Shown here: positions 775-21,485 of the stretch, one piece after another
Layout of the letters: each line of letters starts with the position of its first letter
Position numbering within the stretch: position 1 is the stretch's first letter
DNA from: a virus
IMG/VR virus record: IMGVR_UViG_3300032050_000168
Span: 1 to 56,468 of that record
Length of the DNA: 56,468 nucleotides
Strand: one strand, 5' to 3'
Made by a program: the position numbers and the translations under genes
The notes under the pieces: model-generated
Databases searched by the model: none
What the model saw: only the letters and a program-made list of their open reading frames with translations
What the model was told of the DNA's origin: nothing

Positions 775-3708
775 TTAATACATATTATCAAAAGGTGTTG
801 CAAATGTTGAGTAACTAGTTACCGTACCAATGGTGGGCATATAGGAACCTGGATACGCAGTGATTGCAGGCAATGGTGCTGTATTTAAATTAAATGCAAA
901 TGTGTAGTCCTGTGCAAGCCACGATGTTAATTGTGAAAATACGAAAGTCGTGTTACGGGTTGCTGAACCACCATCCCATTTGTGAGTTGTTACTTTGTGT
1001 GCACTACTCGATGATCCTGGGTATGTGTTATATAATGGTAACGCCATGTGCCAGTGAGTTGATGTTCTATGTGCAAGTGGTCCGGTAAAAATATTATATA
1101 ATGCATCCGAAGTGTTTAATCCGCCAGATGGTTCTATTCTGAGTCGTTTACCACCTAGTACCGTTCCATTTAAATCCAGAGTAAAAAATTGCATCGCATT
1201 ATATCGTCGGTCGAAATTGTCCAGTATAACGTTAAACGAAACTTCTATGACACCATTTACGTATTGTAACGATTGTTGTCGTCTTCCTTGCAAGGCTGCT
1301 CCGCCAGACGAGACATATCCAGCTTCGTCAGAGGCGTGATAAGTACTTATAAGGGTTGCCCAAGCACATTGCATTCCTCCTTCAAACGCATATGCACCTG
1401 CTGGATTATAAAACTTTGCTACTATAACTCCACTATCCTGATCAGCATTGCCATAGAGTGACTCACCTCGTCTGAATACTACATACAACTCCGATCCTAT
1501 CATTTTCGTAACTCGGGGTATCCATCCTGTCATCGTTGGATTATACCAACAAGTATGAAAATTTCCGTATCCTAGATAATAATCTCCAAATGCGGGATAG
1601 AAGGTATTAACACCATCCCCCAACATGCCAGCCACCCATAATGTAGCAGGTGCATATACGCCCACTCCGTATGGACGAAACGGCTGGTTATTAGAATTTT
1701 TTCCGAACATAACAACTGCACCACTATTATTTCCAGGATAATCAGATATTTCACTTGTACCCGATCCCCAGTTAATATACCCCCACCCATATCTAACACC
1801 ACCTTGACTCCAATTTGTGAGTCCTGTACGGAACGTATTTTGTCCATCATACAATATTGAAGTTGGATTTGCGGGAGTTCCTCTTGACATAAATGTTTCT
1901 ACGTCTGCATACACTACTCCACTTGTTACATTATAATTAAATCGGAAGGTTACATAAGACAGTCCAACTGTATCATACACTTTTATATGACCAAATATTT
2001 CTGTTCCTGCAATCGGAATCATCGACGTGGATTCATTCTTCTCGTGGTCAAATGTTTGTTCGTTTATAAAAAAGCCTGTAGGTAAGGTTATTCTTGTAGT
2101 TCTCACCAATGTACCATTTGACGTATTCTGTACGACTAATTCAAGAATACTTGCATATTCAATGTAATACGTTGCCGTCACCATATAGTTTCCAACAACG
2201 CAGGTACCTAGTACACGGGAATCTAGATCTCCTTGTGTTCCAAACCCTTTCCCCCAATTTGCAAACACAATTTCCGATGGCGACGGTGTAATTGATGGGG
2301 TAACTGTACGTGTTGGTGTAACTGTAGGAGTAACAGACGGCGTTGTAGTAACCGATGGCGTAGTAGTTGGTGTAAAACTTGGAGTGACCGGTGGGGTAAC
2401 AGACGGCGTTGTAGTAACCGATGGCGTAGTAGTTGGTGTAAAACTTGGAGTGACCGGAGGTGTGATAGATGGTGTGGTTGTAACGGACGGCGTAGTAGTT
2501 GGTGTAAAACTTGGAGTGACCTGTGGGGTAACAGATGGCGTTGTGGTAACGGATGGTGTATTAGTTGGTGTAAATGTAGGAGTAACAGACGGCGTTGGTG
2601 TAAATGTTGGCGTATTAGTTGGTGTAAATGTAGGAGTGACGGTTGGCGTTGGTGTAACGGTACTGGTAATTGTGTATGTAGGGGTTACCGTTGGCGTAGT
2701 CGTGGTAGTTGGTGTATTGGTAGGGGTTGCTGACGGACACTGCTGTACCGTTGGACTAATAATACCCACGGATGATGTATATGCGTAAGGATATAATACA
2801 CTTCCGCTTTCAAAAAATCCAGTAAATCCGGTAGTACAATTACTCTGTAAATAAATTTTACCAAAGCAATCTTTATAAAACTTGGTATTGTTTGTTGGGG
2901 TGTTACAATAATCGGTAAGCGTACCACCGCTACTTTTATATAATCCTGGAACTTCTACGCACGGACACGGTGTTACTGTTGGCGATCTAGTAATCGTCGG
3001 GGTTGTCGTTGGTGTAAATGTCGGCGTAATTGTTGGAGTTGGTGTAAATGTTGGCGTACGAGTAAGGGTGGGAGTAACCGTAGAGGTTGGTGTTACCGTA
3101 AACGTTGGGGTAAATGTTGGCGTAAAGGTTGGTGTTACCGTAAACGTTGGGGTAAGCGTTGGGGTTACTGTTGGAGTTACCGTTGGAGTCGGTGTGTTTG
3201 TGGGTGTATTTGTAGACGTAAATGTCGGAGTTGTCGTTGTGGTTGGGGTAAACGTTGGGGTAAATGTTGGCGTAAAGGTTGGTGTTACCGTAAACGTTGG
3301 GGTAAATGTTGGCGTAAAGGTTGGTGTTACCGTAAACGTTGGGGTAAGCGTTGGGGTAAACGTTGGGGTTACTGTGCTAGATGGTGTGGTGGTTTTAGTA
3401 TGTGTTGGCGTCAACGTAGTTGTTGGCGTAACGGTTGGACTGAATGTACTCGTAGGTGTTGGTGTTGGACTTGGCCCTTTATAACACAGTACATAATTTC
3501 TAACCTTCGGTGCCAGTGATGCGGTATCGGCAAGAAAATATCCCGGTGGACATCCAGTTGCAGCTAATCCTGGAGTTCCGGGGGGAGCGTAATTGGCAAC
3601 TAATGCATGTGCGGCAGTTCCAGCAGGAGCAATTACCTCATGTGCGTAACTGGATGACTCTACATATGAACTTGTTGATGGTATACCAAAAGGAAAAAAT
3701 GTACTCAC
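775..3708 (-). CDS. Giant Thr/Pro-rich (mucin-like) stalk adhesin, 977 aa
   Basis: Probable tail-associated adhesin. Seen: an N-terminal region (1-78) with ASY-type residues as in the neighbouring fibres; a first stalk (about 79-248) made almost only of T-P-T/F/V repeats; a small Cys-containing domain (about 249-325); a second T/P/S stalk (about 326-478) with a 22-residue tandem repeat; and a 500-residue aromatic, Gly-rich C-terminal domain (about 479-977) of beta-rich appearance, a plausible receptor-binding head. The start is GTG, supported by a CGGAG ribosome binding site 6-7 nt upstream. The stalks offer well over 100 Thr residues with flanking Pro, the kind of sequence mucin-type O-glycosyltransferases modify, and the gene lies just downstream of an eight-gene glycan cassette. 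The glycoprotein role is inference. Long open frames on the opposite strand here are artefacts of the repeats. Confidence 0.8.
2326..2559 (-). repeat. 66-bp in-frame tandem repeat inside the second stalk
   Basis: Three full copies and one partial copy of a 22-codon unit ([20 protein letters not shown] plus TT). The plus-strand string ttggtgtaaaacttgg recurs at about 2367, 2433 and 2499, exactly 66 nt apart. The unit is in frame, so slippage or recombination would lengthen or shorten the stalk without breaking the gene. Confidence 0.85.
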
Positions 3709-3724
3709 ACAAAACTCCGATTAT

Positions 3725-3934
3725 TTACACATTAATAATTTGTACTTTAGTTGTATCGTATCCGTCGCCGATAATTTTATATGGAGGGCCTTGCGGTCCT
3801 ATACTTTCACTTGCAAATTGAGCAAATGATGCAGTAATTGGCTTACCACCGGGCGAAGTAGTCATAGTCAATCGTGAACCTATTGAATAAGAACCACTTA
3901 TATAAGTACCACCGGGAGTAAATTCAATCGTCAT
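3725..3934 (-). CDS. Small fibre-associated protein (69 aa)
   Basis: No family recognised. It contains ISGSYSIGSR and ITASFAQFAS, the short G-S/A-S-F/Y repeats that also build the large fibres of this region, and ends in a more polar segment (IIGDGYDTTKVQIINV). The ATG at 3934 is preceded by an AAGAG sequence within the end of the upstream gene. Too short to be a fibre alone; more likely a tip, linker or capping subunit. Inferred structural role only. Confidence 0.6.
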   Translation of the reverse strand: MTIEFTPGGTYISGSYSIGSRLTMTTSPGGKPITASFAQFASESIGPQGPPYKIIGDGYDTTKVQIINV

Positions 3935-3945
3935 ATTTTATACTC

Positions 3946-4185
3946 TTAATCTGAAAAGTCGCACAATTCTACACGGGTTGCTGAGCCAGAAATTTGATAA
4001 TATTGTTCTGTACTAAGAAGACAGATTCCTATTCCTCGTGATCCTGATTGAGGATATAGTACTCGGTCTGCTTTTGATGCTGTAACTACGTTATTTATGA
4101 AACTTGCGGATATTGCATATGATGATGTTATTGCAAATGATGAAGTGTACAGTGAACCGGATGCATACGGGTATACATTAATCAT
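3946..4185 (-). CDS. Small fibre-like protein (79 aa) with ASY repeats
   Basis: The N-terminal half is built of YTSSFAITSSYAISASF, the repeat shared by the large fibre proteins; the C-terminal half (SRGIGICLLSTEQYYQISG) looks like a short beta domain. The ATG follows the upstream stop by one nucleotide (TGA-T-ATG), so translation is probably coupled to the 286-aa protein gene. It may be a mini-fibre or tip adaptor, or a remnant of a larger fibre gene. No catalytic or binding motif is visible. Confidence 0.6.
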   Translation of the reverse strand: MINVYPYASGSLYTSSFAITSSYAISASFINNVVTASKADRVLYPQSGSRGIGICLLSTEQYYQISGSATRVELCDFSD

Positions 4186-4186
4186 A

Positions 4187-5047
4187 TCAACTCTCTAGAG
4201 AAAATACGTGCAACGATACTTTAATATTGGTAGTACCGGGAGTTGATGCAAGATTTTCAAGTATATAATACATTTCATTTTCTCCCATGATTGCCGCTTC
4301 ATTACTTCTAATTGCAACTAGATCGGATCCGATTGTATCTAAATTTGAACCTACAATTTTTGGAACAAAATAGGTAGTTTGACTACCAGATAATATTGCA
4401 TCAATAATTAATCCAGTACTTCCCAAAGATTCTGTGGCAAATGATCTGGAAATTTCTGTAGTATTTGAAAACACATTTGATCTACTATATAGACGTATTC
4501 TTGCTCGGGTTCCCGACCCCGATAGAGATGCACTCACCAATAAATAGGTTCGTGGAACTGTAGGATCACTTAAAGTTCCCGTTACAAATGTTCCCGTGGT
4601 TACCAACGATTGTATATAGGGGACTGTTATCCGATTGATGGTATTTACCGTAGAATCTTCCAATAAATATCTATTAAATACTATTGTTGGAGTACTTGTA
4701 TTATTATCTATTCTATAATAAGTTAATTTATTACTGGCGGTGGCAACCACGCCGTATGTAGCTGGATCAATTTTATATGTTCCTGCTACACTCATACTAA
4801 AATCGCCGATTAGTGCAATATTGTTTGGTACAAAATTGGTGGTAAACGGTCTTATTTTTTCAGTAGCGTCATCCCTACTCTGTAAATTATCGTATAAACG
4901 CAATCTACATGGAATATTTGACTGTAAGGTTAGTAACATATACGCGGAACCTAATTCAATGGATCCTGAATTAGATGCGTTTGCTTGTAATGTTACGTTC
5001 TCTCTAATTAATGAAGCGCCATCCCTAATATGATCTGCTAATCCCAT
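4187..5047 (-). CDS. Virion-associated protein, unknown (286 aa)
   Basis: Not recognised. The sequence is Ser/Thr/Asn-rich and predicted largely beta, with several strand-like stretches (SAYMLLTLQSNIPCRLRLY; TYLLVSASLSGSGTRARIRL; TTNIKVSLHVF) that look like jelly-roll or Ig-like sandwiches. It has no signal peptide or membrane segment. The ATG is preceded by AAAGGAC and, 25 nt further up, by the TATTTATA motif proposed as a late promoter. It is the first gene after the glycan cassette, followed by two mini-fibre genes and the giant stalk. Likely a tail or baseplate decoration protein. Confidence 0.6.
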   Translation of the reverse strand: MGLADHIRDGASLIRENVTLQANASNSGSIELGSAYMLLTLQSNIPCRLRLYDNLQSRDDATEKIRPFTTNFVPNNIALIGDFSMSVAGTYKIDPATYGVVATASNKLTYYRIDNNTSTPTIVFNRYLLEDSTVNTINRITVPYIQSLVTTGTFVTGTLSDPTVPRTYLLVSASLSGSGTRARIRLYSRSNVFSNTTEISRSFATESLGSTGLIIDAILSGSQTTYFVPKIVGSNLDTIGSDLVAIRSNEAAIMGENEMYYILENLASTPGTTNIKVSLHVFSLES

Positions 5048-5089: not shown

Positions 5090-7435
5090 TTAGTTTTCTC
5101 TACGTTCTTCTGCCGGATAAAACTCTACTCGGTCGTGGGTGATTGGACTTGCCACCAATATACCAGGATTAATATTCCCATTTAATGTTTCTTGAAAAAT
5201 GTGACTCATCCACGTTTGTTCATACGGAAATGCCCATCGTGTTTCTAAAAACATCTTTCTATTTCCTTCTTTACTAACAATTTGAGGCCAATTGCTATAG
5301 TATACTTCTCCTGTTGCATAAGCAACCCCGTCTAATACTTTTATATTGTAAAAACGTGTATATGGTGAATTTGGATCCAATCCTGTCTCTGGTAATTTAT
5401 CGTACGATGGCCACGTCTGTGTTCTGATTTCTTGCGGCACATTATACCACGCCCATTGCTTACTGTTATCCCCATAAAATTCTGAAAATGAGAATTTTAA
5501 GAAATCAAACTTTTCTTTGAGCATGATCTTTACAATTGAGGTATACAGATTAGGAACATATTGTGTCAATCCGCACTTACATAATTTATCGGCAGTGTCT
5601 TTGCCATTGACGTGCATATCGTCTTCAAAAAACATAGAAAAATCCGCGTCAGATTCATCAAAGTGTTCTGCAGCAAATTGTCGTCCACCGCACACACCCA
5701 AATTTTCTCTATGAATTTCTTCAAATCCATACATGGTACATAATTCATCATATTCTGGAAATAGTGTCGTGTCAATAGAATTGTTTATTAGTATCTTTCT
5801 ACTTAAGACGAACATATCAGGATCGTTCTGTTTTATTGATTCACACACTGATTTAAACTGATTCGGTGAATTGAATCCCAATACGTATAAATTTGTTTTT
5901 GCTGTTTTTGGTGTAATAACTCTATGAATGCTGTTGGTTAGTTCTTTTACATCTTTTAATTTTTCAAAAAATCTCCAAACTAATCCATCTTCCAGCAATT
6001 CATAACAATATATGAACTCCGGATATTGATGTGCCAGAATAGTAAATATACTTTCTTCTGTCCCCATCAATTGTTTTTGTAAAGTATCTGTCAATACTGC
6101 ATAATATAATCCATTAATTTTGTTGATAAGAGATTTTTTACCACCAAAAAATCCACCACGACACACATAGTTAACGTGGGTTACTTCACAATATTTTGTA
6201 ATTTCTTTTCTGTCAAATCCATGAATCTCGGTTCCATCCGTATATGGATATGACAAAAATAAAAATTGATTTAAGCTCTCCACATAAGTTGATAAATTAT
6301 TTAATACTTTGTCATGTGTAAAATATCCAGGATGTACAGTTGATGTAATTCCCGCATCAAGCCAAAAGAAATATTCCGTGTCAAACGGATTAAATATCGT
6401 GGCATTGTTTAACATAAACATCTTACTCATAACAACAGGATTGTAATACTCCAACGTTGCTTGCGGGGATTCTTTAAGCCAACTTGCTTGAGAATACCAA
6501 GATTCCGTTTTTCTTATCTGTTGTACCGAGTTAAAATGTTCAAACCAAAGTTTAAATTCTTTTAATTCTAATATCTTGACCATAGTATTACTACGTGATC
6601 TATGTTTCCAGATAAACTCTTCGTCTTCCGGTGCAACAAATATAATCATATTGACGGGAGTTTTCAATAGTTCTGCAAATTTTTCTTTGTAATGTTCGTA
6701 TGACCGTTTAAATGCGGCTGATATACTTTCCCTACCCAAATCCCATAACGCAGTAACTATCGTAACATTTTGAGGTATTTCCTCTGTAAATATTTCATCA
6801 ATCGTATGTAATGTAACTTGTTTATAAGTGTCAATTAATTTTTTATATGGAAATGCCAACTGCAATTTTTCAATTATAGTATCTTCAATTTGATCATAAA
6901 ATACAGGTGTATATTCGGTACGTTTAGTATTTTTTATAAAAACCCCATAATCATATCTAACGCACAATGGAATAAGTTTTTTATGTGTTCTTAAGAAGGA
7001 AGTTAATGTAAGTTTTGGTTGCAAATGAATTTCATGCACGTTTTCATTTACTGTACCCTGCGGTGCGTTAAATGGGACTGTAATAATCAATTCAGCCGAA
7101 GTATTTAGAAGTTTTTGTATAAGACTTCGTGAATCGTTTAAATTCAGATGCTCCAGTATATCTCCCAGAATAATAAAGTCATACTGGGAAAAATCTACCG
7201 AGGTGTGCATTACGTTTTCTATAAACACATTTTTATATTTTTCCCGTAAATTATACTGCTCTACGTAGGGAAAAAATACTTCCATTGCATCAATATTAGT
7301 AAACTGCGGGGATAGTAAATCTGCATAGGTACCACATCCCGCACCAATGTCTAATATTTTAACATCTGTATTGTTGGCCGATTTTGTTATGAACTCTAAA
7401 ATTTGTTGTTTAAAAATTGTAGTACTAAATGGCAT
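5090..7435 (-). CDS. Three-domain fusion: SAM methyltransferase - HtrL/YibB-like - glycosyltransferase-like
   Basis: Seen, in order: a class I methyltransferase domain (about 1-200) with SAM motif I ILDIGAGCGTYADLL at 27-41 and FIILGDILEHLN near 89-100; an HtrL/YibB-like domain (about 223-500) opening with VTIVTALWDLGRE and containing FFWLDAGI (356-363) and a GGFFGG loop (427-432); and a C-terminal GT-A-like domain (about 512-781) with NLYVLGFNSP at its start and an acidic cluster FFEDDMH (602-608) suitable for metal/nucleotide-sugar binding. Known: HtrL/YibB proteins occur in lipopolysaccharide loci and are presumed glycosyltransferases. Inference: the enzyme adds and methylates a sugar, perhaps as a terminal cap, on the glycan made by the cassette. 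It is the last gene of the cassette, 50 nt after the carbamoyltransferase fusion. Substrates are unknown. Confidence 0.7.
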   Translation of the reverse strand: MPFSTTIFKQQILEFITKSANNTDVKILDIGAGCGTYADLLSPQFTNIDAMEVFFPYVEQYNLREKYKNVFIENVMHTSVDFSQYDFIILGDILEHLNLNDSRSLIQKLLNTSAELIITVPFNAPQGTVNENVHEIHLQPKLTLTSFLRTHKKLIPLCVRYDYGVFIKNTKRTEYTPVFYDQIEDTIIEKLQLAFPYKKLIDTYKQVTLHTIDEIFTEEIPQNVTIVTALWDLGRESISAAFKRSYEHYKEKFAELLKTPVNMIIFVAPEDEEFIWKHRSRSNTMVKILELKEFKLWFEHFNSVQQIRKTESWYSQASWLKESPQATLEYYNPVVMSKMFMLNNATIFNPFDTEYFFWLDAGITSTVHPGYFTHDKVLNNLSTYVESLNQFLFLSYPYTDGTEIHGFDRKEITKYCEVTHVNYVCRGGFFGGKKSLINKINGLYYAVLTDTLQKQLMGTEESIFTILAHQYPEFIYCYELLEDGLVWRFFEKLKDVKELTNSIHRVITPKTAKTNLYVLGFNSPNQFKSVCESIKQNDPDMFVLSRKILINNSIDTTLFPEYDELCTMYGFEEIHRENLGVCGGRQFAAEHFDESDADFSMFFEDDMHVNGKDTADKLCKCGLTQYVPNLYTSIVKIMLKEKFDFLKFSFSEFYGDNSKQWAWYNVPQEIRTQTWPSYDKLPETGLDPNSPYTRFYNIKVLDGVAYATGEVYYSNWPQIVSKEGNRKMFLETRWAFPYEQTWMSHIFQETLNGNINPGILVASPITHDRVEFYPAEERREN

Positions 7436-7485: not shown

Positions 7486-10077
7486 CTACAAACCTCCCAT
7501 TTTTCTATGAAAATAGAAATCTTCCACATAAACCCCACTCAGTTCGGTGGATTCAAATACTTTAAATGCGTCACCTAACGTTGATAAAATGGGTTTACCG
7601 TCTACGTTAAACGACGTATTCAGTAACACACCAATGCCAGTTAGTTTTTTAAACTCGGTAATTAAATCATATAATTTCTGATTCTGTTCTCGTGTAACTG
7701 TTTGTACCCGCGCAGTTCCATCTACATGAACAATTGCAGGTATGATATTTTTATATTTTTCTTTTACTTTAGGACAAAAACTCATCCACCTGGATTCACC
7801 CTCCCATTCAAAATATTCTGACACATCTTCTAAACGAACTACAGGAGCAAATGGTCTGTACCATTCTCGGTGTTTTACTTTTAAATTCAATGTGTCTTTC
7901 ATATCGGACAGTAACGGACTACATAAAATACTACGATTACCTAACGCACGAGGACCGTGCTCCGACCGTCCGGTAATAAATCCAAGTATTTGACCCTGCA
8001 TAAGTAACGTAGCTAATTTATCTAACTCAATTGATTCTCCAAGATAACGTTCAACATATTCAGATAACCGATGTTTGTCAAGTAATTCTGGTCCTGCGTA
8101 TGTTACGTCAATTGAATCCGGTGGCATGATCATATTTGCCAGCATACCCACCGCTAACCCACAATCATTTGGATTTGGTCCAACAAACACGGGTCTATTA
8201 TATTTTTGGTTTATTTTTGTATTTAATACAATATTCAATCCACACCCACCCGTTATACAAATAGGAAGTTCTGTGTGAGATTGTATTTCCTCGTCCACGT
8301 ACTCAAAAAATAATTCTTCAAATACGTGCTGTGATGTAGCAGCTACATCATATGCAACTTGATCAATCAATCTATTCTGTATATCAAATGGTATAGAAAT
8401 TTCTTCAGATAAAATTTTAAAATGCTCTTCGTAATTCCCGCCAGAAATATTAGAAGTATATAATTTTTTAAATGCATTTACCCAATCTGTTCTTACATTA
8501 CCATATGATTGTAGTCCTAGAATTTTTCCAGCATATACCAAATTACCCAAACTTAGTGCATTTTCTTTTTTAATGTCGCCAAGATATTCACCAAATATCA
8601 TATATGGAAATCCCAAATCCAGTCTATGTTCTCGTAAAACAGTAAGTGGTTTTCCTCGTTCTGCTAGATAAATTTTAAAAAATCCATCATTACCGCCACC
8701 ATCAAACGAGATTACCAATGCTTTTTGAAATGGTGATTGATAAAATGTACCTGCCGCATGTGATTCGTGGTGCTTACACTCAACGTGAATTTTTGCAGGA
8801 AATCCTTCCCAATAGTTAACACTGCCGTGGTGTTCAATTGTTTCACAGTGTTGATGTAAACAATAACCGTATTCGGTGAAACCATATTTATTCTGAAAAT
8901 AGTCTACTATCAGTTTTGATAAGTTTTTTCTTGAATGTGCCACGTAATATTGCGTATAACCTGCGTTCTTTACATTCAAGAATCTTTCAATTTCCAACAC
9001 TTCCAAAATTTTTCCACCATATTCAACTGCAACTGATGCGTTATGGGAGCCATATACTGCTATATTTGGTAAATCAAATTTCTCATATACAAATGGTGCA
9101 GGTGACTTATACACAGGCACCAAATATTTTTCCACGTTAGTTAATCTTGACTCTTTTTCTTCTATTAAATTAAAAAATGATTTATAAAAAGACCGTGCTG
9201 AATTATCTGAGTGTAGAAAATAACATGGATCCGTTGGAACATCGTGATACCAAGTATCAAACGTATTTAAATAAAATAGTTCAGGATGAGTTGTATGTAC
9301 CACGGACATAATTCCTTCTTCCAACGGAACAACATCAGCATTCAATATAGTATCCACGAGTGCATAAAATTTTTCTGCAAACGTATGAATTACACTCGGT
9401 ACTCCTCCAAAAAAACCACCAATTAAACTTGCAGTTAATTCGGTTGGAGCTACTTCTTTAGTCCACTCAACAGGAAGTCGTATCACTTGAGTTGCATATC
9501 CAAATATTTTTGATTCACTGACAAGTAAGTCGTATAACTTATCACCCAAGTCTTCATTAAATTTTGCTGTACTTTTATTTGGATAATAGTTTTCCAAATC
9601 AAATCTTGCCAATTCAACACCACCCAATGTTTCTGGAAACAACGCATGGTGAAACAGTCCCGCATCAATCCATACTACAGGAGTTTCTTCTATTTGACGA
9701 TGTTTAATAGTATCCAGTAAAAACCATAACTTTGACAAGCACAGAATATGTAACCTATTATTATGTTTATATAATTCTGATGCGTCATTATTGAATAAAT
9801 TAACATATCGTTCTTTTAAAGAATAAACTTTTTGATAGTTTGGAAGATCTTCTAATTCCACGTGTCGTAATTCAAAATTTATTAAGTTATATTCTTGAAC
9901 GAATTTTGTTAATTCCGGTTCTTGAAATTTATCGTGATAAACCACAACTTTTTGCGTACCCAATCGTGAAATTGCATATAATGTTGGTTTATAATAAGAA
10001 AAATTCCATCCTCTACCGCCCATTATAGATAAAGGATTTGAGTAATATACTGCAGTAACTATTGTTGTATTATTCAT
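7486..10077 (-). CDS. Fusion: HtrL/YibB-like domain + NodU/TobZ-type O-carbamoyltransferase (863 aa)
   Basis: Residues 1-340 resemble HtrL/YibB proteins (TIVTAVYY at 5-12; VVWIDAGLFHH at 134-144; GGFFGG at 220-225). Residues about 338-863 are a full carbamoyltransferase: metal-binding HHESHAAGTF (437-446), CITGGCGLN (607-615), and a C-terminal YrdC/Kae1-like part with GRSEHGPRALGNRSIL (703-718), WYRPFAPVV (739-747), TARVQTV (788-794) and LLNTSFNVDGKPI (818-830). Known: NodU/TobZ enzymes transfer a carbamoyl group from carbamoyl phosphate, via carbamoyl-AMP, to a sugar hydroxyl. Free-standing members are about 550-600 aa, so the N-terminal 340 residues are an added domain. Inference: glycosyl transfer and carbamoylation of a sugar on the cassette's glycan are coupled in one polypeptide. 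All the key motifs appear intact. Confidence 0.85.
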   Translation of the reverse strand: MNNTTIVTAVYYSNPLSIMGGRGWNFSYYKPTLYAISRLGTQKVVVYHDKFQEPELTKFVQEYNLINFELRHVELEDLPNYQKVYSLKERYVNLFNNDASELYKHNNRLHILCLSKLWFLLDTIKHRQIEETPVVWIDAGLFHHALFPETLGGVELARFDLENYYPNKSTAKFNEDLGDKLYDLLVSESKIFGYATQVIRLPVEWTKEVAPTELTASLIGGFFGGVPSVIHTFAEKFYALVDTILNADVVPLEEGIMSVVHTTHPELFYLNTFDTWYHDVPTDPCYFLHSDNSARSFYKSFFNLIEEKESRLTNVEKYLVPVYKSPAPFVYEKFDLPNIAVYGSHNASVAVEYGGKILEVLEIERFLNVKNAGYTQYYVAHSRKNLSKLIVDYFQNKYGFTEYGYCLHQHCETIEHHGSVNYWEGFPAKIHVECKHHESHAAGTFYQSPFQKALVISFDGGGNDGFFKIYLAERGKPLTVLREHRLDLGFPYMIFGEYLGDIKKENALSLGNLVYAGKILGLQSYGNVRTDWVNAFKKLYTSNISGGNYEEHFKILSEEISIPFDIQNRLIDQVAYDVAATSQHVFEELFFEYVDEEIQSHTELPICITGGCGLNIVLNTKINQKYNRPVFVGPNPNDCGLAVGMLANMIMPPDSIDVTYAGPELLDKHRLSEYVERYLGESIELDKLATLLMQGQILGFITGRSEHGPRALGNRSILCSPLLSDMKDTLNLKVKHREWYRPFAPVVRLEDVSEYFEWEGESRWMSFCPKVKEKYKNIIPAIVHVDGTARVQTVTREQNQKLYDLITEFKKLTGIGVLLNTSFNVDGKPILSTLGDAFKVFESTELSGVYVEDFYFHRKMGGL

Positions 10078-10107: not shown

Positions 10108-11031
10108 TTATTTTATAACTTCTTGAATTTTATTTAGTATGTTGTATTTTTCCAAAAATATATTTTTATTTTCTAGCATGTACGGGAACATTTCGTCATA
10201 CAATTTTTCTGCGTTGTTATTTATGTCTAATATAAGAGAACGCACGGCATCCAAGTCATCCAAGTCTGGCATCTGTATATATCCTCGGGAATCATAATAT
10301 TCCGCAATATTCGTACTTCCATAATAGATCGGAATTGTGTTAGTTAACAAATTATCTGTAAATTTTTCTGTGGTATAAAATGGTTCCGCTGTATTTTCTA
10401 TTCCTATAGAAAACCGATATGATTTAAGTGCAATGTATTTATTCCATGCTTCCCCTTTACATCTACCGGTGGCGGTCCATTGTTTACCGTATACATCAAC
10501 CGGTAAATCATTGTCTATAATTAGATTTGCCACGTTCATACGTTTACGATAAATGTGAGGTGCGTCAGAAGGAACCCACCACATATTATCCGGGGAGTTT
10601 GATACCACCATACTAATATTTTCTGTTTTGGACAAGTCCCACTGATTTATGTGTTCAAGTCCCCACTCAGAATCACCACCGCCACCATACAGCATATAAT
10701 TTGGACCTTCAATTACTTTCTCATTATCATGATCAAAAATATTACGGTTTTGAACGAATACCCAATCAGAATAATCAACCGCATTGCGATCTATATTATG
10801 TGACCACGACGGTTCCATTCCAAAAAATATGGTGTGTTGTTTATCGGTTTTAAGTACGTTGTCACCCAACCTACCGAATACTATTGCCCATTCATAAGAA
10901 TCGTCGGTAACAAATTCAAAATTTTCAAAATGGTACTCATTTAATTTTAATTGTGCTAATACTCGTCCAATAATACTAACAGAAGGTTGATCGTGTGTCC
11001 ACCAGCAAAAAATTCTAATTTTAGTTTTCAT
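10108..11031 (-). CDS. GT10-family (alpha-1,3-fucosyltransferase-like) glycosyltransferase
   Basis: Residues 203-243 contain the GT10 signature: KSYRFSIGIENTAEPFYTTE, then KFTDNLLTNTIPIYYGS, matching the pattern K-F-x-[LI]-x-x-E-N ... [YD]-x-T-E-K ... N-[AL]-[LI] ... P-[VI]-x-[YF]-[GW] that binds GDP-fucose. Length (307 aa) fits bacterial FucTs of the short type; I see no heptad repeats or membrane tail. Its partner is the GDP-fucose synthase gene three genes upstream, so donor and transferase are encoded together. The start ATG overlaps the previous stop (ATGA), giving translational coupling. Acceptor unknown; another GDP-sugar donor cannot be excluded. Confidence 0.8.
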   Translation of the reverse strand: MKTKIRIFCWWTHDQPSVSIIGRVLAQLKLNEYHFENFEFVTDDSYEWAIVFGRLGDNVLKTDKQHTIFFGMEPSWSHNIDRNAVDYSDWVFVQNRNIFDHDNEKVIEGPNYMLYGGGGDSEWGLEHINQWDLSKTENISMVVSNSPDNMWWVPSDAPHIYRKRMNVANLIIDNDLPVDVYGKQWTATGRCKGEAWNKYIALKSYRFSIGIENTAEPFYTTEKFTDNLLTNTIPIYYGSTNIAEYYDSRGYIQMPDLDDLDAVRSLILDINNNAEKLYDEMFPYMLENKNIFLEKYNILNKIQEVIK

Positions 11032-11801
11032 AATTTATCTCTGTTTATTAAATAAAAATGTTCGTACGGATACTGCGGCAAATCTTCCATTACTTTGGTA
11101 TAAGGTTGTCCAAACATACCAACAATAGTAGAAGATTCAGTTTGTATATATTTTCCAGTTCCATGATTCCAAAATCCAATAAATTCTCTATTAAATCTTG
11201 AATATTTTCCAACGCCAGGTGTTATATTATCATCACGAACGTCGGATACAATATTATGAATTCCTGGTAAATAATACTCTGGGAATGCTTCATTATATTT
11301 GTCGATGTACCTATACGTTATGTCCCCGTCTTCTTCTCCAATACCCAGCAATCGTTCATCCAACCATCCTATATCAATCATTCCGTCCTTTGTATAACAT
11401 GCATGACTAAATGAACCATTGAATTTACACATTCGTGTGATGGACGAATTTATAGACTCAAACGTATCAAAAAAACTTTCATTTAAAATATCAACATCAT
11501 CGTTTAAACATAATAATAAATTAGTGGGTGAATGAATTACCAACGTATTGACTAATTTAGCGTATCCACGAAATGATGGGAAAAATATAGGATATACATT
11601 ATTTGTAGTTCCAATCAATTCCAATACCGATGTACGATACGTTTCATCAAATTCCGTATTATTTAGTCCATTTATTGCTACTAGTATAGGTATATTTTTC
11701 CTATATTCACGAATAGCTAATAATGTTTTCTTAAACATATCAAATCGTTTAGAAAACGTTGTAATACCAATACTATACGGCAAGATTGTTGTTTCTGACA
11801 T
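11028..11801 (-). CDS. GT2-like (GT-A fold) glycosyltransferase
   Basis: I chose the ATG at 11801, which has an AGAGAAG ribosome binding site, over a GTG 78 nt upstream that would extend the overlap with the previous gene. The protein (257 aa) opens with a GT-A nucleotide-binding strand (YSIGITTFSKR), has PILVAINGLN in the second strand, and an acidic metal-binding motif LCLNDDVDI at about 97-105. Known: GT2 enzymes use nucleotide sugars and build chains one sugar at a time. Sugar and linkage cannot be read from sequence. It overlaps the upstream GT7C-like gene by 29 nt and the downstream FucT gene by 4 nt. Confidence 0.7.
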   Translation of the reverse strand: MSETTILPYSIGITTFSKRFDMFKKTLLAIREYRKNIPILVAINGLNNTEFDETYRTSVLELIGTTNNVYPIFFPSFRGYAKLVNTLVIHSPTNLLLCLNDDVDILNESFFDTFESINSSITRMCKFNGSFSHACYTKDGMIDIGWLDERLLGIGEEDGDITYRYIDKYNEAFPEYYLPGIHNIVSDVRDDNITPGVGKYSRFNREFIGFWNHGTGKYIQTESSTIVGMFGQPYTKVMEDLPQYPYEHFYLINRDKL

Positions 11802-12471
11802 ATTCTTCTCTATTAAAATATAAAATGTTTTCTCTGTCTTGAAAATGCGGTAGATGTAATGGCAACACACGATCCTCACTGACCCCGGTTCGTATGAATT
11901 TATAATTCCATCTATCCATCAAATGTCCATCTTCCCCTCCCCACGTAGTAAATTTTTCATCAAAAAATCCAATGTCTTTTATAGATTTGATTGATGTTAA
12001 ATGAAATCCACCGAATCCACCAACACATCCTTTTGTAAATACTAATGGATGTGTTCCGTGCGGATCAACTTGATCTAATGGTATATTTCCATCGTCAAGT
12101 TTTGCAAAATTAAAGAAAAACCCAATTTCATATGTTACGTTTGATGCGAGAGTGGCTAACGCATCCCATTGTGTCCGATGTATAAATACATCGCAGTCCA
12201 TCAAACAAATGTTATCTTCCTCTGGAAATGTATTTATTATTCCGTTAAGTTTTTCTGATCGTTTATATGTTCCAATTGGGTATGGAATATGTGTTGCGTC
12301 GTCAATTATTTTTTCTGGTGAATAGTCAAATATATTGGCAGTAGCGGGTACCGACTTACTGTTTAGATATCGTACCATATCCTTTAAATATGGCCACGTT
12401 AAGTGTACATTTCGTTCTCTGCTACTATTTTCTTGGCCATCTGTCCAAAAAGCCATGCAGAAATGTATCAT
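11773..12471 (-). CDS. Galactosyltransferase-type (GT7 C-terminal domain) glycosyltransferase
   Basis: 232 aa. Seen: DCDVF (92-96), a DxD metal motif; GCVGGFGGFHLTSIKSI (148-164), then FFDEKFTTWGGEDGHLMDRW (169-188). The last block, W-G-G/E-E-D at the end of a G-G-F/V-x-x-F/x segment, is the hallmark of the Glyco_transf_7C family of beta-1,4-galactosyl/GalNAc-transferases and of bacterial relatives with this fold. Inference: it extends the primer GlcNAc made by the GT60-like enzymes, perhaps with a hexose, before fucosylation. Its start overlaps the stop of the GDP-fucose synthase gene (ATGA). Confidence 0.75.
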   Translation of the reverse strand: MIHFCMAFWTDGQENSSRERNVHLTWPYLKDMVRYLNSKSVPATANIFDYSPEKIIDDATHIPYPIGTYKRSEKLNGIINTFPEEDNICLMDCDVFIHRTQWDALATLASNVTYEIGFFFNFAKLDDGNIPLDQVDPHGTHPLVFTKGCVGGFGGFHLTSIKSIKDIGFFDEKFTTWGGEDGHLMDRWNYKFIRTGVSEDRVLPLHLPHFQDRENILYFNREEYVRNNNLAV

Positions 12472-13391
12472 AACCTAATGGTTCCCGTTTCATAATGTTG
12501 AGTAAACCAAGAAATTGTTTGAGATAATCCGATTGGTAACTCTGTGTATTTTATAGGATATACTAGTTGGAGTTTACTCGTATCACTTGGTTTTCTTTCT
12601 TGTCCGTTATGTTGTGTACTATCTTCAAACACAATCTTTCCCGTGAAATTCATTTCCTTTGCAATTAGATGTACCACATCACGTATTTCGTACTGAGTCG
12701 GTGATGATACTACCAATGGTTCTACATCTTCATAATTAAATATTGCCCATGCAATAACTTTTGCTAAATCTTCGGCATAAATAAATTCACGATACACTTT
12801 TCCATTTCCCATCACATTTAATGGAGTATTATTTATTTTTGCCAAATAACATTTATGAATTAATGCAGGAATTACGTGAGCAGATTCTAAATTAAATTGA
12901 TCATATTTACCATATACATTTGTAGGTATTATGGTTGTCCATTTTTTATTATATTGTGTTTGATATGCCCGAGTTTGAACTTCTAACATTCTTTTTGCAT
13001 AAGCATATCCAAAATTTGAATCATGAGGTTCTCCATCGTGGATTTTATGTGGCTGTAATGGATACGTTGTTTTATCGGGAAATATGCAAGTTGACATCAT
13101 CCCTAGTAATCGGTTCACATTGTATTGATGAGCATATTGCAATACATACGTATTCATTATGACGTTTTGTTCGTAAAATCCTACGGGATCTCTACTATTA
13201 GCCATTACCCCACCAACCTTGGACGCTAAGTGAATAACATGTGTTGGATTGTATATAGAAAACATACTTTCTACATCAGTTTTATTTGTTAAATTAAATT
13301 GAGTAGACGATATGTAGTTGGCAGAGGGTAAATATTTCTGTAAGTTTCTACCCACTAAACCCGACCCCCCAGTTACCAATATTTTGTTCAT
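12468..13391 (-). CDS. fcl: GDP-L-fucose synthase (NAD-dependent epimerase/reductase)
   Basis: Short-chain dehydrogenase fold: Rossmann loop VTGGSGLVGRN (6-16), catalytic Ser/Cys in MSTCIFP (about 99-105), and Y129-x3-K133 in FGYAYAKRM. The downstream HVIPAL (172-177) places the catalytic His as in the E. coli enzyme. MGNGKVYREFIYAEDLA matches the family's substrate-binding stretch. Length 307 aa against about 320 in bacteria. It converts GDP-4-keto-6-deoxymannose to GDP-L-fucose in the cytoplasm. No GDP-mannose 4,6-dehydratase (gmd) is in this window, so the substrate must come from the host or from a gene elsewhere in the phage. The ATG has an AGGAG site and overlaps the previous stop by 4 nt. 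Confidence 0.88.
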   Translation of the reverse strand: MNKILVTGGSGLVGRNLQKYLPSANYISSTQFNLTNKTDVESMFSIYNPTHVIHLASKVGGVMANSRDPVGFYEQNVIMNTYVLQYAHQYNVNRLLGMMSTCIFPDKTTYPLQPHKIHDGEPHDSNFGYAYAKRMLEVQTRAYQTQYNKKWTTIIPTNVYGKYDQFNLESAHVIPALIHKCYLAKINNTPLNVMGNGKVYREFIYAEDLAKVIAWAIFNYEDVEPLVVSSPTQYEIRDVVHLIAKEMNFTGKIVFEDSTQHNGQERKPSDTSKLQLVYPIKYTELPIGLSQTISWFTQHYETGTIRL

Positions 13392-14629
13392 AGTTCTCCT
13401 GTCAACCGTTCACCCCATCCATGTTCTCTTGAGTGTGGCCACACAATCCATCGTTTTGGCTGGTCTAATGTGTGAAATATTCTCCAGAGTTTACAATATC
13501 CGGCGGAGTCGTTTTTCATCATCAAAATTTCTTGTTCATTGGCATCTTCTCTATGAATTTCTACCCCTTCTTTATTTTCAAATGCCACTGCCCATACATC
13601 ATAATCATTGTACGGTACCCATGATATTGGTATATCAATACAATGTTTGAATACACGTAGATATGGTTCTCCTGGAGGATTAGGAGGTTCTTTGTGATCT
13701 AACGTATATTGTTGCACAGATCGTGTATCAAATTTAATACCTGCATAATTTTCATAATCTTCAAGCGTTCTAATAGTTCCAAATCCAAAATCACCGAAAT
13801 CTTCTGCCGGATCATGTTCTCCGTCAATGCGGAGTAATCGTCTATTTCTTGCCAAAGAAGCATTATCCCAACGTCCCCATTCTGCTATATCATCCCACGA
13901 CTTTCGTGGACGATGTTCCCGAGAATATTCATGATATACTACTGGTTTATGAGGAGAAAACAAATCATAACCCCATGTATAGGCTCGGGCAGCAATAGAA
14001 ATTTCTTCGCCATGAAATAAATAATTGGGATCGTGAGGAACTTCTTTACAGAATTGTCCAAGGGTAAATCCAAAGTGTGCTGAATAGAATCGACTCGGAT
14101 ATGGAAGTGTTCTATTTTGCCAATCTGGAATTACGGATGGAATAAAAAATACTGCTCCCTGTGGCGTAAATCTGTCAAATGTCAAAAACCACGGATCTGT
14201 TGCTCTACCAGTAGGATCATTGTGTGGTTCGTAACTTGATACATATGCAGTCAGTAATGGCTTTTTGTGTCCTACTTTTTGTAAATCCTTTACCATTTTA
14301 ATTAGTGTATCATCCCAATCTTTTGCAAATCGGTGATGTGAATCTAACTGTAACGTGTAAGCTTCATCAGTCCAATGCTTTTGAATTTGGTATCGTGCCC
14401 AACACGTTCCTCTAGTTTGTAAATGAGGTATATCAAGAATTTTAAAACGAGCATCGTTTTTAAATTCATCTAACGTATCCCAATCATCCTCGGTTGCATG
14501 TTGCCACGCAATACAAAAACGTAAATTTTTGGGTTTCTTTGCATTTGCAATACAACTACGAATCGTTGGTAATAATTCTGGATCTCGGTATGCGGCAATT
14601 TGAATAAAAATGTTTTGATTCTTTTTCAT
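13388..14629 (-). CDS. GT60-like polypeptide GlcNAc-transferase, copy 2 (413 aa)
   Basis: Same architecture as the gene just upstream and clearly its paralogue: IFIQIAAYRDPELLPTIRSC at the N-terminus, CIAWQH near 40, LQLDSHHRF (DSHH about 96-99), YLFHGEEISIAARAY and YDLFSPHKPVVYHEYSRE, the conserved blocks of the Pfam family Glycosyltransferase (GlcNAc), CAZy GT60. Known: members attach GlcNAc to hydroxyproline of Skp1 (Dictyostelium) or to Thr in mucin-like proteins (trypanosomes). A C-terminal 110-residue extension (NDYDVWAVAFENKEGVEIHR ... WIVWPHS) is shared by both copies. Inference: it initiates glycosylation on a phage protein. ATGA overlap with the previous gene. Confidence 0.78.
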   Translation of the reverse strand: MKKNQNIFIQIAAYRDPELLPTIRSCIANAKKPKNLRFCIAWQHATEDDWDTLDEFKNDARFKILDIPHLQTRGTCWARYQIQKHWTDEAYTLQLDSHHRFAKDWDDTLIKMVKDLQKVGHKKPLLTAYVSSYEPHNDPTGRATDPWFLTFDRFTPQGAVFFIPSVIPDWQNRTLPYPSRFYSAHFGFTLGQFCKEVPHDPNYLFHGEEISIAARAYTWGYDLFSPHKPVVYHEYSREHRPRKSWDDIAEWGRWDNASLARNRRLLRIDGEHDPAEDFGDFGFGTIRTLEDYENYAGIKFDTRSVQQYTLDHKEPPNPPGEPYLRVFKHCIDIPISWVPYNDYDVWAVAFENKEGVEIHREDANEQEILMMKNDSAGYCKLWRIFHTLDQPKRWIVWPHSREHGWGERLTGEL

Positions 14630-15903
14630 ATGTTAAACTCTCCAGATAATCTAGTCATCCATCCTTTACTCAAACTATGAGGCCATACTATCCATTTTGC
14701 TGGTAGGTCGTCGTGATAAAAATTTCTCCAGATGTGTGAAAATTTATCTTGTTCATACGGAACACTTAAAATTCTCTGAATTTCCTGTTCATATGCGTCT
14801 TCTCTATGAATTTCTACCCCTTCTTTATTTTCAAATGCAATTACCCAAACATTATAATCATTTTCTGTAAATTCTGGTCTATGTACGTCTATACACATTC
14901 TATGGTATTTTGCCAATCCCTGTGCATGATATACTTCATCTATTGACACGGGAGGTAATTTCTTGGTAATCGTATCTCTATGTACTTGTCGTGTACTAAA
15001 CTTTAATCCCGCATACAATTCATATTGTTCTAATGATCTAACTTGTTTTTTTACTAATTTATTTGATGGTGAGATTACATCAATACCTAGTAAAGTTCTA
15101 TTATGTTTGTGGGATGTAGTATCTAATTCTTTCCAATCAGTATGGTCATCCCAATGTTTCTTTTTACCTTCTCGTGTATATTCATGCCAAATAACTGGTC
15201 TATGTGGAGCAAATAAATCATACCCCGCCATATACGCTCGTACAGACAGATTGATCTCTTCTCCATGAAAATAGTACGTGGGGTCATATTCCACTTCTTT
15301 ACAAAATTTCCCATCGGCAAAAATAAAATGACCCGAAATAAATCGTGACGGCATTGGACGATCTAGTTCTTTAAAATTATCTATGGTGTGCGGTAAAAAG
15401 TGTACGGGCCCTTCAGGAGCAAACCGGTCAAATTCCATAATCCACGGTATCATCATTCTACCAGCGGGATCGTTTTTTGGATCAAAACTGGGAAGATAGG
15501 AACTTAATAGTGGTTTTGGGCAATCTTTTGAACGAAGACTTTCCAGCATCTCAATAACTGTAGTATCCCATCCCTTACTAAACCTGTGATGGGAATCTAA
15601 CTGCATTGTATACGTTTCTTTATTATAGGCTTTATTTAGTTGATGTCTCGCCCAACACGGACCCTTCGCATCACGATAATCAATATCAATAATATCAAAA
15701 CGAGAATCATCTTTAAACTCGTCTAAGTTATCCCACTCTTCGTATGGGGAATGTTGCCAGGCAATACCAAATCGTAATCTATCAGGATGATCAGCATTTG
15801 CTAAACAATCCCGTAATGTATTTAATAATTCAGGATCTCGGTATGCGGCAATTTGTATATAAATCGTTGGATTAGAAACTTTTTTCTTTTTTCTTGGAGC
15901 CAT
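14626..15903 (-). CDS. GT60-like polypeptide GlcNAc-transferase, copy 1 (425 aa)
   Basis: N-terminal basic stretch (APRKKKK), then the GT60/PF11397-type blocks: IYIQIAAYRDPELLNTLRDC, FGIAWQH, MQLDSHHRF (DSHH 103-106, the metal/UDP-sugar site), PKPLLSSYLPSF, YYFHGEEINLSVRAY (HGEE 213-216) and YDLFAPHRPVIWHEYTRE. The C-terminal extension (NDYNVWVIAFENKEGVEIHR, later WIVWPHS) is shared with the next gene; such an extension could recognise the acceptor. First gene of the glycan cassette, preceded by a GAGGG ribosome binding site. Family relatives transfer alpha-GlcNAc to hydroxyl groups of proteins, not to lipid carriers. The Thr/Pro-rich stalk and Ser/Thr-rich fibres encoded nearby are therefore the natural candidate acceptors (inference). 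Confidence 0.8.
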   Translation of the reverse strand: MAPRKKKKVSNPTIYIQIAAYRDPELLNTLRDCLANADHPDRLRFGIAWQHSPYEEWDNLDEFKDDSRFDIIDIDYRDAKGPCWARHQLNKAYNKETYTMQLDSHHRFSKGWDTTVIEMLESLRSKDCPKPLLSSYLPSFDPKNDPAGRMMIPWIMEFDRFAPEGPVHFLPHTIDNFKELDRPMPSRFISGHFIFADGKFCKEVEYDPTYYFHGEEINLSVRAYMAGYDLFAPHRPVIWHEYTREGKKKHWDDHTDWKELDTTSHKHNRTLLGIDVISPSNKLVKKQVRSLEQYELYAGLKFSTRQVHRDTITKKLPPVSIDEVYHAQGLAKYHRMCIDVHRPEFTENDYNVWVIAFENKEGVEIHREDAYEQEIQRILSVPYEQDKFSHIWRNFYHDDLPAKWIVWPHSLSKGWMTRLSGEFNI

Positions 15904-20291: not shown

Positions 20292-21485
20292 TTAAGTAGT
20301 AACAATTTGAGTATTTTGTAATTGAATTGATGTTGCGTCTATACTACCATCCGCATTTAACCGAATTATTTTTTCAGCGGTGATTGATTTATATGAGCTG
20401 AAAGTTCCACCGACGTATAATTTTCCGCTTGAGTCAATCGCGAGAGATGTAACACTACTATCAAACGCTATAGAATTATCAAAATTGGTATCTTTCGTTC
20501 CATCGGCATTTAATCTGATAATATTATTTGCCGTAACTCCTTTATACGTAGTAAAACTACCACCAACATATAGTTTTTCATTAGTATCAAGAATCAAAGA
20601 ATATACAAGTTCTAAATTTCCAAACGCCGTTGAGTTATCAAACGCTGTGTCTTTGGTTCCATCTGCATTGAGTCTGATGATACTATTTGCTTGAACTCCT
20701 TTATATAATTCAAAAATTCCACCAACATACAGCTTTCCACTAGAATTTAAAATTAATCTTAAAACGGAACCATCAAACCCTGTTGAATTATCAAACCCCG
20801 TATCTTTGGTTCCATTCGGATTCAGACGAATTATACTATTTGCTTCCACTCCTTTATATAAAATAAAATTTCCACCAACATATATTTTTCCGTTGGAGTC
20901 AATCTCAATAGAATTTACTTCCGCGTCAAACCCAGTTGAGTTATCAAACGCTGTGTCTTTGGTTCCGTCTGCGTTGAGTCTAATAATATAATTTGCTTGA
21001 ACTCCTTTGTATGAAGTAAAAAATCCACCAACATATATTTTTCCGTTGGAATCAATTTTTGTGATATAAACCGACGCAGTATCTGCTGGAATAGTAAACC
21101 CTGTTGAATTATCAAACGCTGTGTCTTTGGTTCCATCTGCGTTGAGTCGGATAATACCGTTTGCTGCAACGCCTTTATAACTAGTAAAACTTCCACCAAC
21201 ATATATTTTTCCGTTGGAGTCAATCTCAATAGAATAAACTCCTCCATTAAACCCTGTTGAGTTATCAAACGCTGTGTCTTTGGTTCCGTCTGCGTTGAGT
21301 CTAATAATATAATTTGCTGTAACGCCTTGGTACGAAGTAAAAAATCCACCAACATATATTTTTCCGTTGGAATCTATTACAACTACTTGCACGGTGTTGT
21401 TGAATGCACCTAATATATTACTTCGTAATTTATTAGTAATAATAATTGAGTTAGTTCCCTCTGGTTTAATAACCATCATATTCAT
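20292..21485 (-). CDS. Seven-repeat beta-propeller adhesin (delta-60/DUF5122-like), 397 aa
   Basis: Seven tandem repeats of about 50 residues with consensus IDSNGKIYVGGxFTSYKGV followed by IIRLNADGTKDTAFDNSTGF; the last ends in IRLNADGSID. This is the delta-60 repeat (DUF5122) pattern, predicted to fold as a beta-propeller with one blade per repeat. An N-terminal 37-residue segment precedes repeat 1. The nucleotide repeats are well conserved, implying recent homogenisation. The ATG has GGAGAA about 9-10 nt upstream. Propellers of this type often bind glycans or proteins. In a fibre cluster it is most likely a receptor-binding or accessory subunit (inference). Confidence 0.8.
   Translation of the reverse strand: MNMMVIKPEGTNSIIITNKLRSNILGAFNNTVQVVVIDSNGKIYVGGFFTSYQGVTANYIIRLNADGTKDTAFDNSTGFNGGVYSIEIDSNGKIYVGGSFTSYKGVAANGIIRLNADGTKDTAFDNSTGFTIPADTASVYITKIDSNGKIYVGGFFTSYKGVQANYIIRLNADGTKDTAFDNSTGFDAEVNSIEIDSNGKIYVGGNFILYKGVEANSIIRLNPNGTKDTGFDNSTGFDGSVLRLILNSSGKLYVGGIFELYKGVQANSIIRLNADGTKDTAFDNSTAFGNLELVYSLILDTNEKLYVGGSFTTYKGVTANNIIRLNADGTKDTNFDNSIAFDSSVTSLAIDSSGKLYVGGTFSSYKSITAEKIIRLNADGSIDATSIQLQNTQIVTT

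Follow-up and report, generated by a model that had tools for sequence, protein, structure and literature searches.

A mucin-like Thr/Pro-rich stalk protein and its association with GT60-type glycosyltransferases in large environmental phages

The window analyzed here, a 56,468-base stretch of phage DNA, encodes on its minus strand (775-3708) a mucin-like protein of 977 residues, in which a conserved N-terminal domain is followed by two long Thr/Pro-rich segments and by an end that changes from phage to phage. The same window carries two genes for GT60-type glycosyltransferases, and the linkage between GT60 and Thr/Pro-rich proteins is a recurrent one. Because stalks and GT60 enzymes co-occur across many distantly related large phages, phage-made, sugar-coated stalks are suggested. 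The reading that we favor, and consider fairly probable from sequence comparison, is that the protein would be a modular virion fiber bearing O-glycans that the phage's own GT60 enzymes attach to its stalk. A search of the open-access literature found no earlier report of phage mucins or of phage GT60.

PHROG matches to a tail sheath, a portal and a major head protein identify the source as a T4-like phage with a contractile tail. The closest relatives in culture are Flavobacterium phage immuto and Microcystis phage Mel-JY01, with 51-55% identity in the major head protein and a similar level in the terminase. IMG/VR contig 3300031857_000349 is 100% identical across window positions 38.9-56.5 kb and continues beyond the window. 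Two other genes of this phage deserve mention. The first (20292-21485) adjoins tail-fiber-like genes and encodes a beta-propeller protein of the DUF5122 type; long tandem repeats inside the gene, of 153 and 321 bp, are a possible source of variation. The second (35459-38113) encodes an 884-residue tail sheath; profile matches are limited to its two ends, which implies a large insertion in the middle.

The stalk gene begins with a GTG codon that has a GGAG ribosome-binding site directly 5′ of it and an in-frame stop five codons upstream. The first-pass annotation had the coordinates right, and its account of two Thr/Pro stretches of about 170 and 150 residues around a Cys-containing domain is borne out by residue counts and composition tests; what it overlooked is that the first 78 residues (3475-3708) form a separate conserved domain with the motifs CPxGY...RNYFLC. 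Segment 1 (residues 80-247; 2968-3471) has 85 Thr and 37 Pro among the 169 residues from ∼80 to 248. It is followed by the Cys domain (residues 248-325; 2734-2967), which separates the two stalk segments and has Cys 248, 250, 268, 281, 291 and 324 within or bordering it, and then by segment 2 (residues 326-478; 2275-2733), which has 67 Thr, 37 Pro and 17 Ser in 153 residues and contains internal 66-bp tandem repeats. The C-terminal region (residues 479-977; 775-2274) is a putative tip. At 977 residues the protein is large and not, as first described, giant: Thr/Pro proteins of related phages reach 1,549 and 1,690 residues. These latter two are neighbors, rich in Thr, Pro and Ser, in which TTTPSI-type repeats account for over 1,000 residues, and are encoded upstream of two GT60 genes (locus L119, 2950-13237, of IMGVR_UViG_3300031963_000033).

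The composition of the segments is exceptional for the protein and for the window. Thr plus Pro peaks at 75 per 100 residues, whereas shuffled versions of the same protein (n = 2,000) never go beyond 54; the fraction is at most 0.32 in all other plausible genes of the window. Along each segment Thr keeps to a single register with a period of two residues: 80 of 85 Thr do so in segment 1 and 58 of 67 in segment 2, and none of 10,000 permutations matches this. Codon usage in the segments is mixed, taking in all four codons for Thr and three to four for Pro, so the tracts are not solely a product of DNA slippage. On these tests a composition artefact, or slippage by itself, was rejected as the origin of the signal. 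The protein is mucin-like in that it has a long, repetitive domain rich in Thr, Ser and Pro. Antisense ORFs at 2384-2788 and 3068-3484 were rejected, since it is the minus-strand frame that is conserved as protein in other phages. Also rejected as a homologue was PHROG 15511: its best match covers residues 313-400, which are mostly Thr/Pro, and does not hold outside low-complexity sequence.

A glycan gene cluster lies at 5-20 kb of the window, on the same (minus) strand as the stalk gene. Two of its genes encode GT60-type glycosyltransferases of 413 residues (13388-14629; E 2.5e-71, 241 bits) and 425 residues (14626-15903; E 2.1e-69, 235 bits), identified by Pfam family PF11397, which we take to be equivalent to CAZy GT60; both scores are far above the curated Pfam cut-off of 21 bits. 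The cluster also encodes an NAD-dependent sugar epimerase/dehydratase (12468-13391; PF01370, E 3e-47; nucleotide-sugar epimerase in PHROGs), a Glyco_transf_7C-like protein (11773-12471; PF02709, barely above cut-off), a protein of the GT10 (fucosyltransferase) type (10108-11031; PF00852, E 1e-12), a NolO-like carbamoyltransferase (7486-10077; PF16861/PF02543, PHROG 1601) with an N-terminal extension of ∼335 residues, and a methyltransferase-HtrL/YibB fusion (5090-7435; PF09612, E 1e-18; PF13489, E 1e-6). The GT60 motifs D96 S97 H98, G207 E208 E209 and H233 are invariant in 89 phage sequences. A DxH-type metal motif, a further His and a GEE motif are features of the related GT27 enzymes. The hallmark activity of GT60 enzymes is GlcNAc transfer to Thr or hydroxyproline in polypeptides. 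A sequence search for solved structures related to the GT60 proteins of the window found none.

GT60 is present in every long stalk-bearing contig (G000, G004, G007, G016, G033 and G035): in G004, G007 and G016 it immediately follows the stalk gene, and in G033 and G035 it is near Thr/Pro genes. All eight further stalk-bearing contigs have it too. Among 27 records searched in full, stalk and GT60 are both found in 12 and neither is found in 15, the latter including the complete phages Mel-JY01, immuto, RM378, Milchi, P-SSM4 and GR28A. A TPTxTPT codon pattern occurs in 11 of the 27; these 11 all have GT60, as does G048, in which the stalk repeat differs (TPSPVTPSP-type). The chance value for this co-occurrence is 6e-8, or ∼1e-6 with near-identical lineages merged, a figure that serves as a guide given that the records are non-random. 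Among fragments, six short ones (G008, G009, G015, G030, G034 and G036) carry a Thr/Pro gene but lack GT60, and one of 36 kb (G041) has GT60 with no stalk found. The mucin-like, glycosylatable character that the first-pass annotation had ascribed to the protein thus gains support from the two GT60 genes and glycan cluster of the window and from the co-occurrence in other phages.

The neighborhoods of GT60 genes tell a similar story. The 80 phage GT60 loci collected reduce to 59 that are non-redundant at 95% identity, and a Thr/Pro ORF lies within 10 kb of GT60 in 38 of these (same strand in 34), compared with 1 of 43 capsid-anchored clusters (Fisher p 1e-11). In 18 of the 38 the Thr/Pro gene is on the same strand and no more than 300 bp upstream of GT60, where ∼5 are expected. 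As a further control, an epimerase anchor gave only five loci from one phage lineage, and carbamoyltransferase loci were used in its place: 2 of 11 have Thr/Pro ORFs. The remaining 21 GT60 loci are without a Thr/Pro protein inside 10 kb, six of them having less than 3 kb of upstream sequence. The Thr/Pro proteins beside GT60 have several N-terminal domains that are unrelated to one another; the common feature of the GT60 neighbors is therefore the Thr/Pro stalk. At one locus (L134, 12199-16005) a stalk gene and an epimerase-like gene are followed by a gene for a multidomain protein of 1,268 residues that contains two GT60-like regions.

It is conceivable, if unlikely, that the stalk carries no modification and serves as a flexible or extended linker, and that GT60 and the glycan cluster have other targets. 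Thr/Pro-rich spacers occur in many bacterial surface proteins and enzymes and are often found with no glycosylation known for them; the GT60 genes of the window are separated from the stalk gene by ∼10 kb, and at several loci GT60 adjoins a carbamoyltransferase gene with the stalk absent. The linker reading is nevertheless at odds with the distribution over whole records (12 of 12 against 0 of 15) and with the 18 non-redundant loci at which GT60 is adjacent to Thr/Pro proteins with differing N-terminal domains.

A full-protein search matched its N-terminus and stalk in several of 46 related contigs. The family members, of 320-668 residues, have the first ∼78 residues in common and differ at their ends. 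Over this domain the window protein is 41-50% identical to four family members, with 21 invariant columns in the five-sequence alignment, and a scan with the alignment returned 15 viral contigs, in all of which a Thr/Pro stretch lies behind the domain. The family has the make-up of a modular fiber, with a conserved N-terminal part and distal parts that vary between related phages; with the N-terminal domain conserved and the parts beyond the stalk variable, the earlier suggestion that the stalk keeps a tip at a distance from the virion is plausible.

Upstream of the stalk gene, and in constant order across phages, are three genes on the minus strand: one for a 286-residue protein (4187-5047; 40-50% identity), which is the first gene of this cassette in all stalk-bearing phages examined, and two for small proteins. 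The small protein of 79 residues (3946-4185), with an SSYAxSAS motif, is syntenic at ∼48-55% identity and resembles the repeats of a large fiber-like ORF (E 0.001-0.003). The other, of 69 residues (3725-3934), is paralogous to the N-terminus of the stalk protein and has syntenic relatives directly upstream of the stalk elsewhere. Because of the conserved cassette and the resemblance to fiber-repeat modules, residues 1-78 are probably a virion anchor. It is chiefly the paralogy between anchor and small proteins, combined with the resemblance to fiber repeats, that points, indirectly, to a location in the virion.

Structure prediction, proposed in the first-pass annotation as a check on the Cys domain and the C-terminal region, was informative in part. 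The AlphaFold model of the Cys domain (48 sequences) has a pLDDT of 69.6 and matched no known fold; a model of residues 479-977, made from a single sequence, has a pLDDT of 34.9 and is unusable. The latter region returned no match in Pfam, PHROGs, the PDB, 50,697 phage records, IMG/VR patterns or the related contigs, and the receptor-binding head placed there by the first-pass annotation is therefore putative. Stalks of other phages hold a recurrent interspersed domain of ∼65 residues, of which 51 copies were collected. An iterated HMM of this domain did not detect the Cys domain of the window, and hhalign gave a weak match between the Cys domain and its profile (score 19.3), a score that none of 100 shuffles reached (best 10.7).

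Close relatives of the GT60 enzymes are present in only three phage records: XacN1, the Stenotrophomonas phage RAS14 and CM1. ORF334 of the Xanthomonas jumbo phage XacN1 is a GT60 protein that is 43% identical to that of the window and retains the invariant motifs, and Thr/Pro tracts occur in at least 13 XacN1 proteins, several of them encoded next to the tail sheath gene. The window-type anchor domain was looked for in XacN1 and not found. In XacN1 a carbamoyltransferase gene follows GT60 (L250, 13418-15715). The paper on this phage lists ORF328 and ORF334 as glycosyltransferases and describes at least two glycoproteins from proteomic analysis (PMC5852040). XacN1 resembles the window in encoding both GT60 and Thr/Pro-tract proteins; it differs in belonging to another phage group, and its authors do not connect the Thr/Pro proteins with GT60 (PMC5852040).

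GT60 genes are also found in bacterial genomes. Among 79 such loci, raw Thr/Pro calls were obtained in 29, some of which are wrong-frame artefacts of GC-rich DNA. Three cases are clear (L255, 8519-9664; L256, 2684-3412; L260, 8953-9741): in each a twin-arginine-type leader is followed by Thr/Pro repeats, and the gene is divergent from GT60 at a distance of 200-340 bp. These proteins are possible bacterial mucin-like substrates. Elsewhere (L278, 15075-17564, and Burkholderiales relatives) VgrG-like spike proteins with a poly-TP tail are encoded a few kb from a GT60 gene.

That bacterial GT60 genes adjoin apparently Tat-exported Thr/Pro proteins implies a cell-surface role elsewhere, and by analogy the stalk protein could act inside the infected cell or on its surface (as a decoy or a block to superinfection, for example) and be glycosylated there, never entering the virion. 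We regard this as improbable: the N-terminus has no apparent signal peptide, the small cassette proteins to which the anchor is paralogous are similar to the repeats found in a large fiber-like ORF, and the Thr/Pro proteins of XacN1 adjoin the tail sheath gene. The thought that GT60 and Thr/Pro genes are linked merely as frequent cargo of a shared accessory region, with no enzyme-substrate relation, has very little to commend it, since although both lie in variable, glycan-rich regions and some Thr/Pro ORFs are found at carbamoyltransferase loci too (2 of 11), same-strand immediate upstream adjacency (18 of 38 versus ∼5) and the recurrence of the association in bacterial genomes, with different proteins, speak against it.

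In a glycosylated virion fiber, residues 1-78 would attach the protein to the particle, probably together with the two small cassette proteins, and the Thr/Pro segments with the intervening Cys domain would form an extended stalk. Judging from co-occurrence and enzyme family, the stalk Thr residues would be O-glycosylated in the host cytosol by the phage GT60 enzymes, and the adjacent enzymes of the glycan cluster may then extend or modify the sugars. Coated in this way, the stalk would stay extended and masked and would resist proteases. The C-terminal region, the part observed to vary between phages, would be placed at the tip, where it may serve in binding.

Elements of this scheme have precedents. 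The modular tail fibers of T4-like phages likewise have a conserved attachment end and changing distal parts, but their shafts are beta or coiled-coil structures whereas that of the window is Thr/Pro-rich and its placement in the virion putative. Few phages are known to have glycosylated particles, and the targets are mostly capsid and tail tube. Virion glycosylation is described for mycobacteriophages Che8, Corndog and Myrna (Freeman et al. 2023, cited in PMC12363180); phage-encoded transferases glycosylate virion proteins there, as proposed for the window, but it is proteins of the capsid and tail tube that are modified, whereas for the window a dedicated mucin-like stalk and GT60-type enzymes are proposed. 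In Dictyostelium and Trypanosoma cruzi, GT60 polypeptide alpha-GlcNAc transferases initiate mucin-type O-glycosylation (PMC8724618). The protist system has the enzyme family (PF11397/GT60) and a Thr/Pro-rich substrate domain in common with the window; it operates in the Golgi on secreted or GPI-anchored mucins, whereas that of the window would be a cytosolic phage system acting on a putative virion fiber.

The wider proposition, for which we see an even balance, is that large environmental phages share a mucin-type O-glycosylation system in which GT60 acts on diverse Thr/Pro stalks with interchangeable anchors and tips. The apparently Tat-exported Thr/Pro proteins of bacteria, with their neighboring GT60 genes, would be its cellular counterpart, and mucin-type O-glycosylation by the GT60 family would then not be restricted to eukaryotes. 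If the stalks are GT60 substrates, then many uncultured phages have self-made glycoprotein fibers, which would bear on adsorption, particle stability and masking. It would also mean that there is a soluble system, at work in the bacterial cytosol, for making mucin-type glycoproteins.
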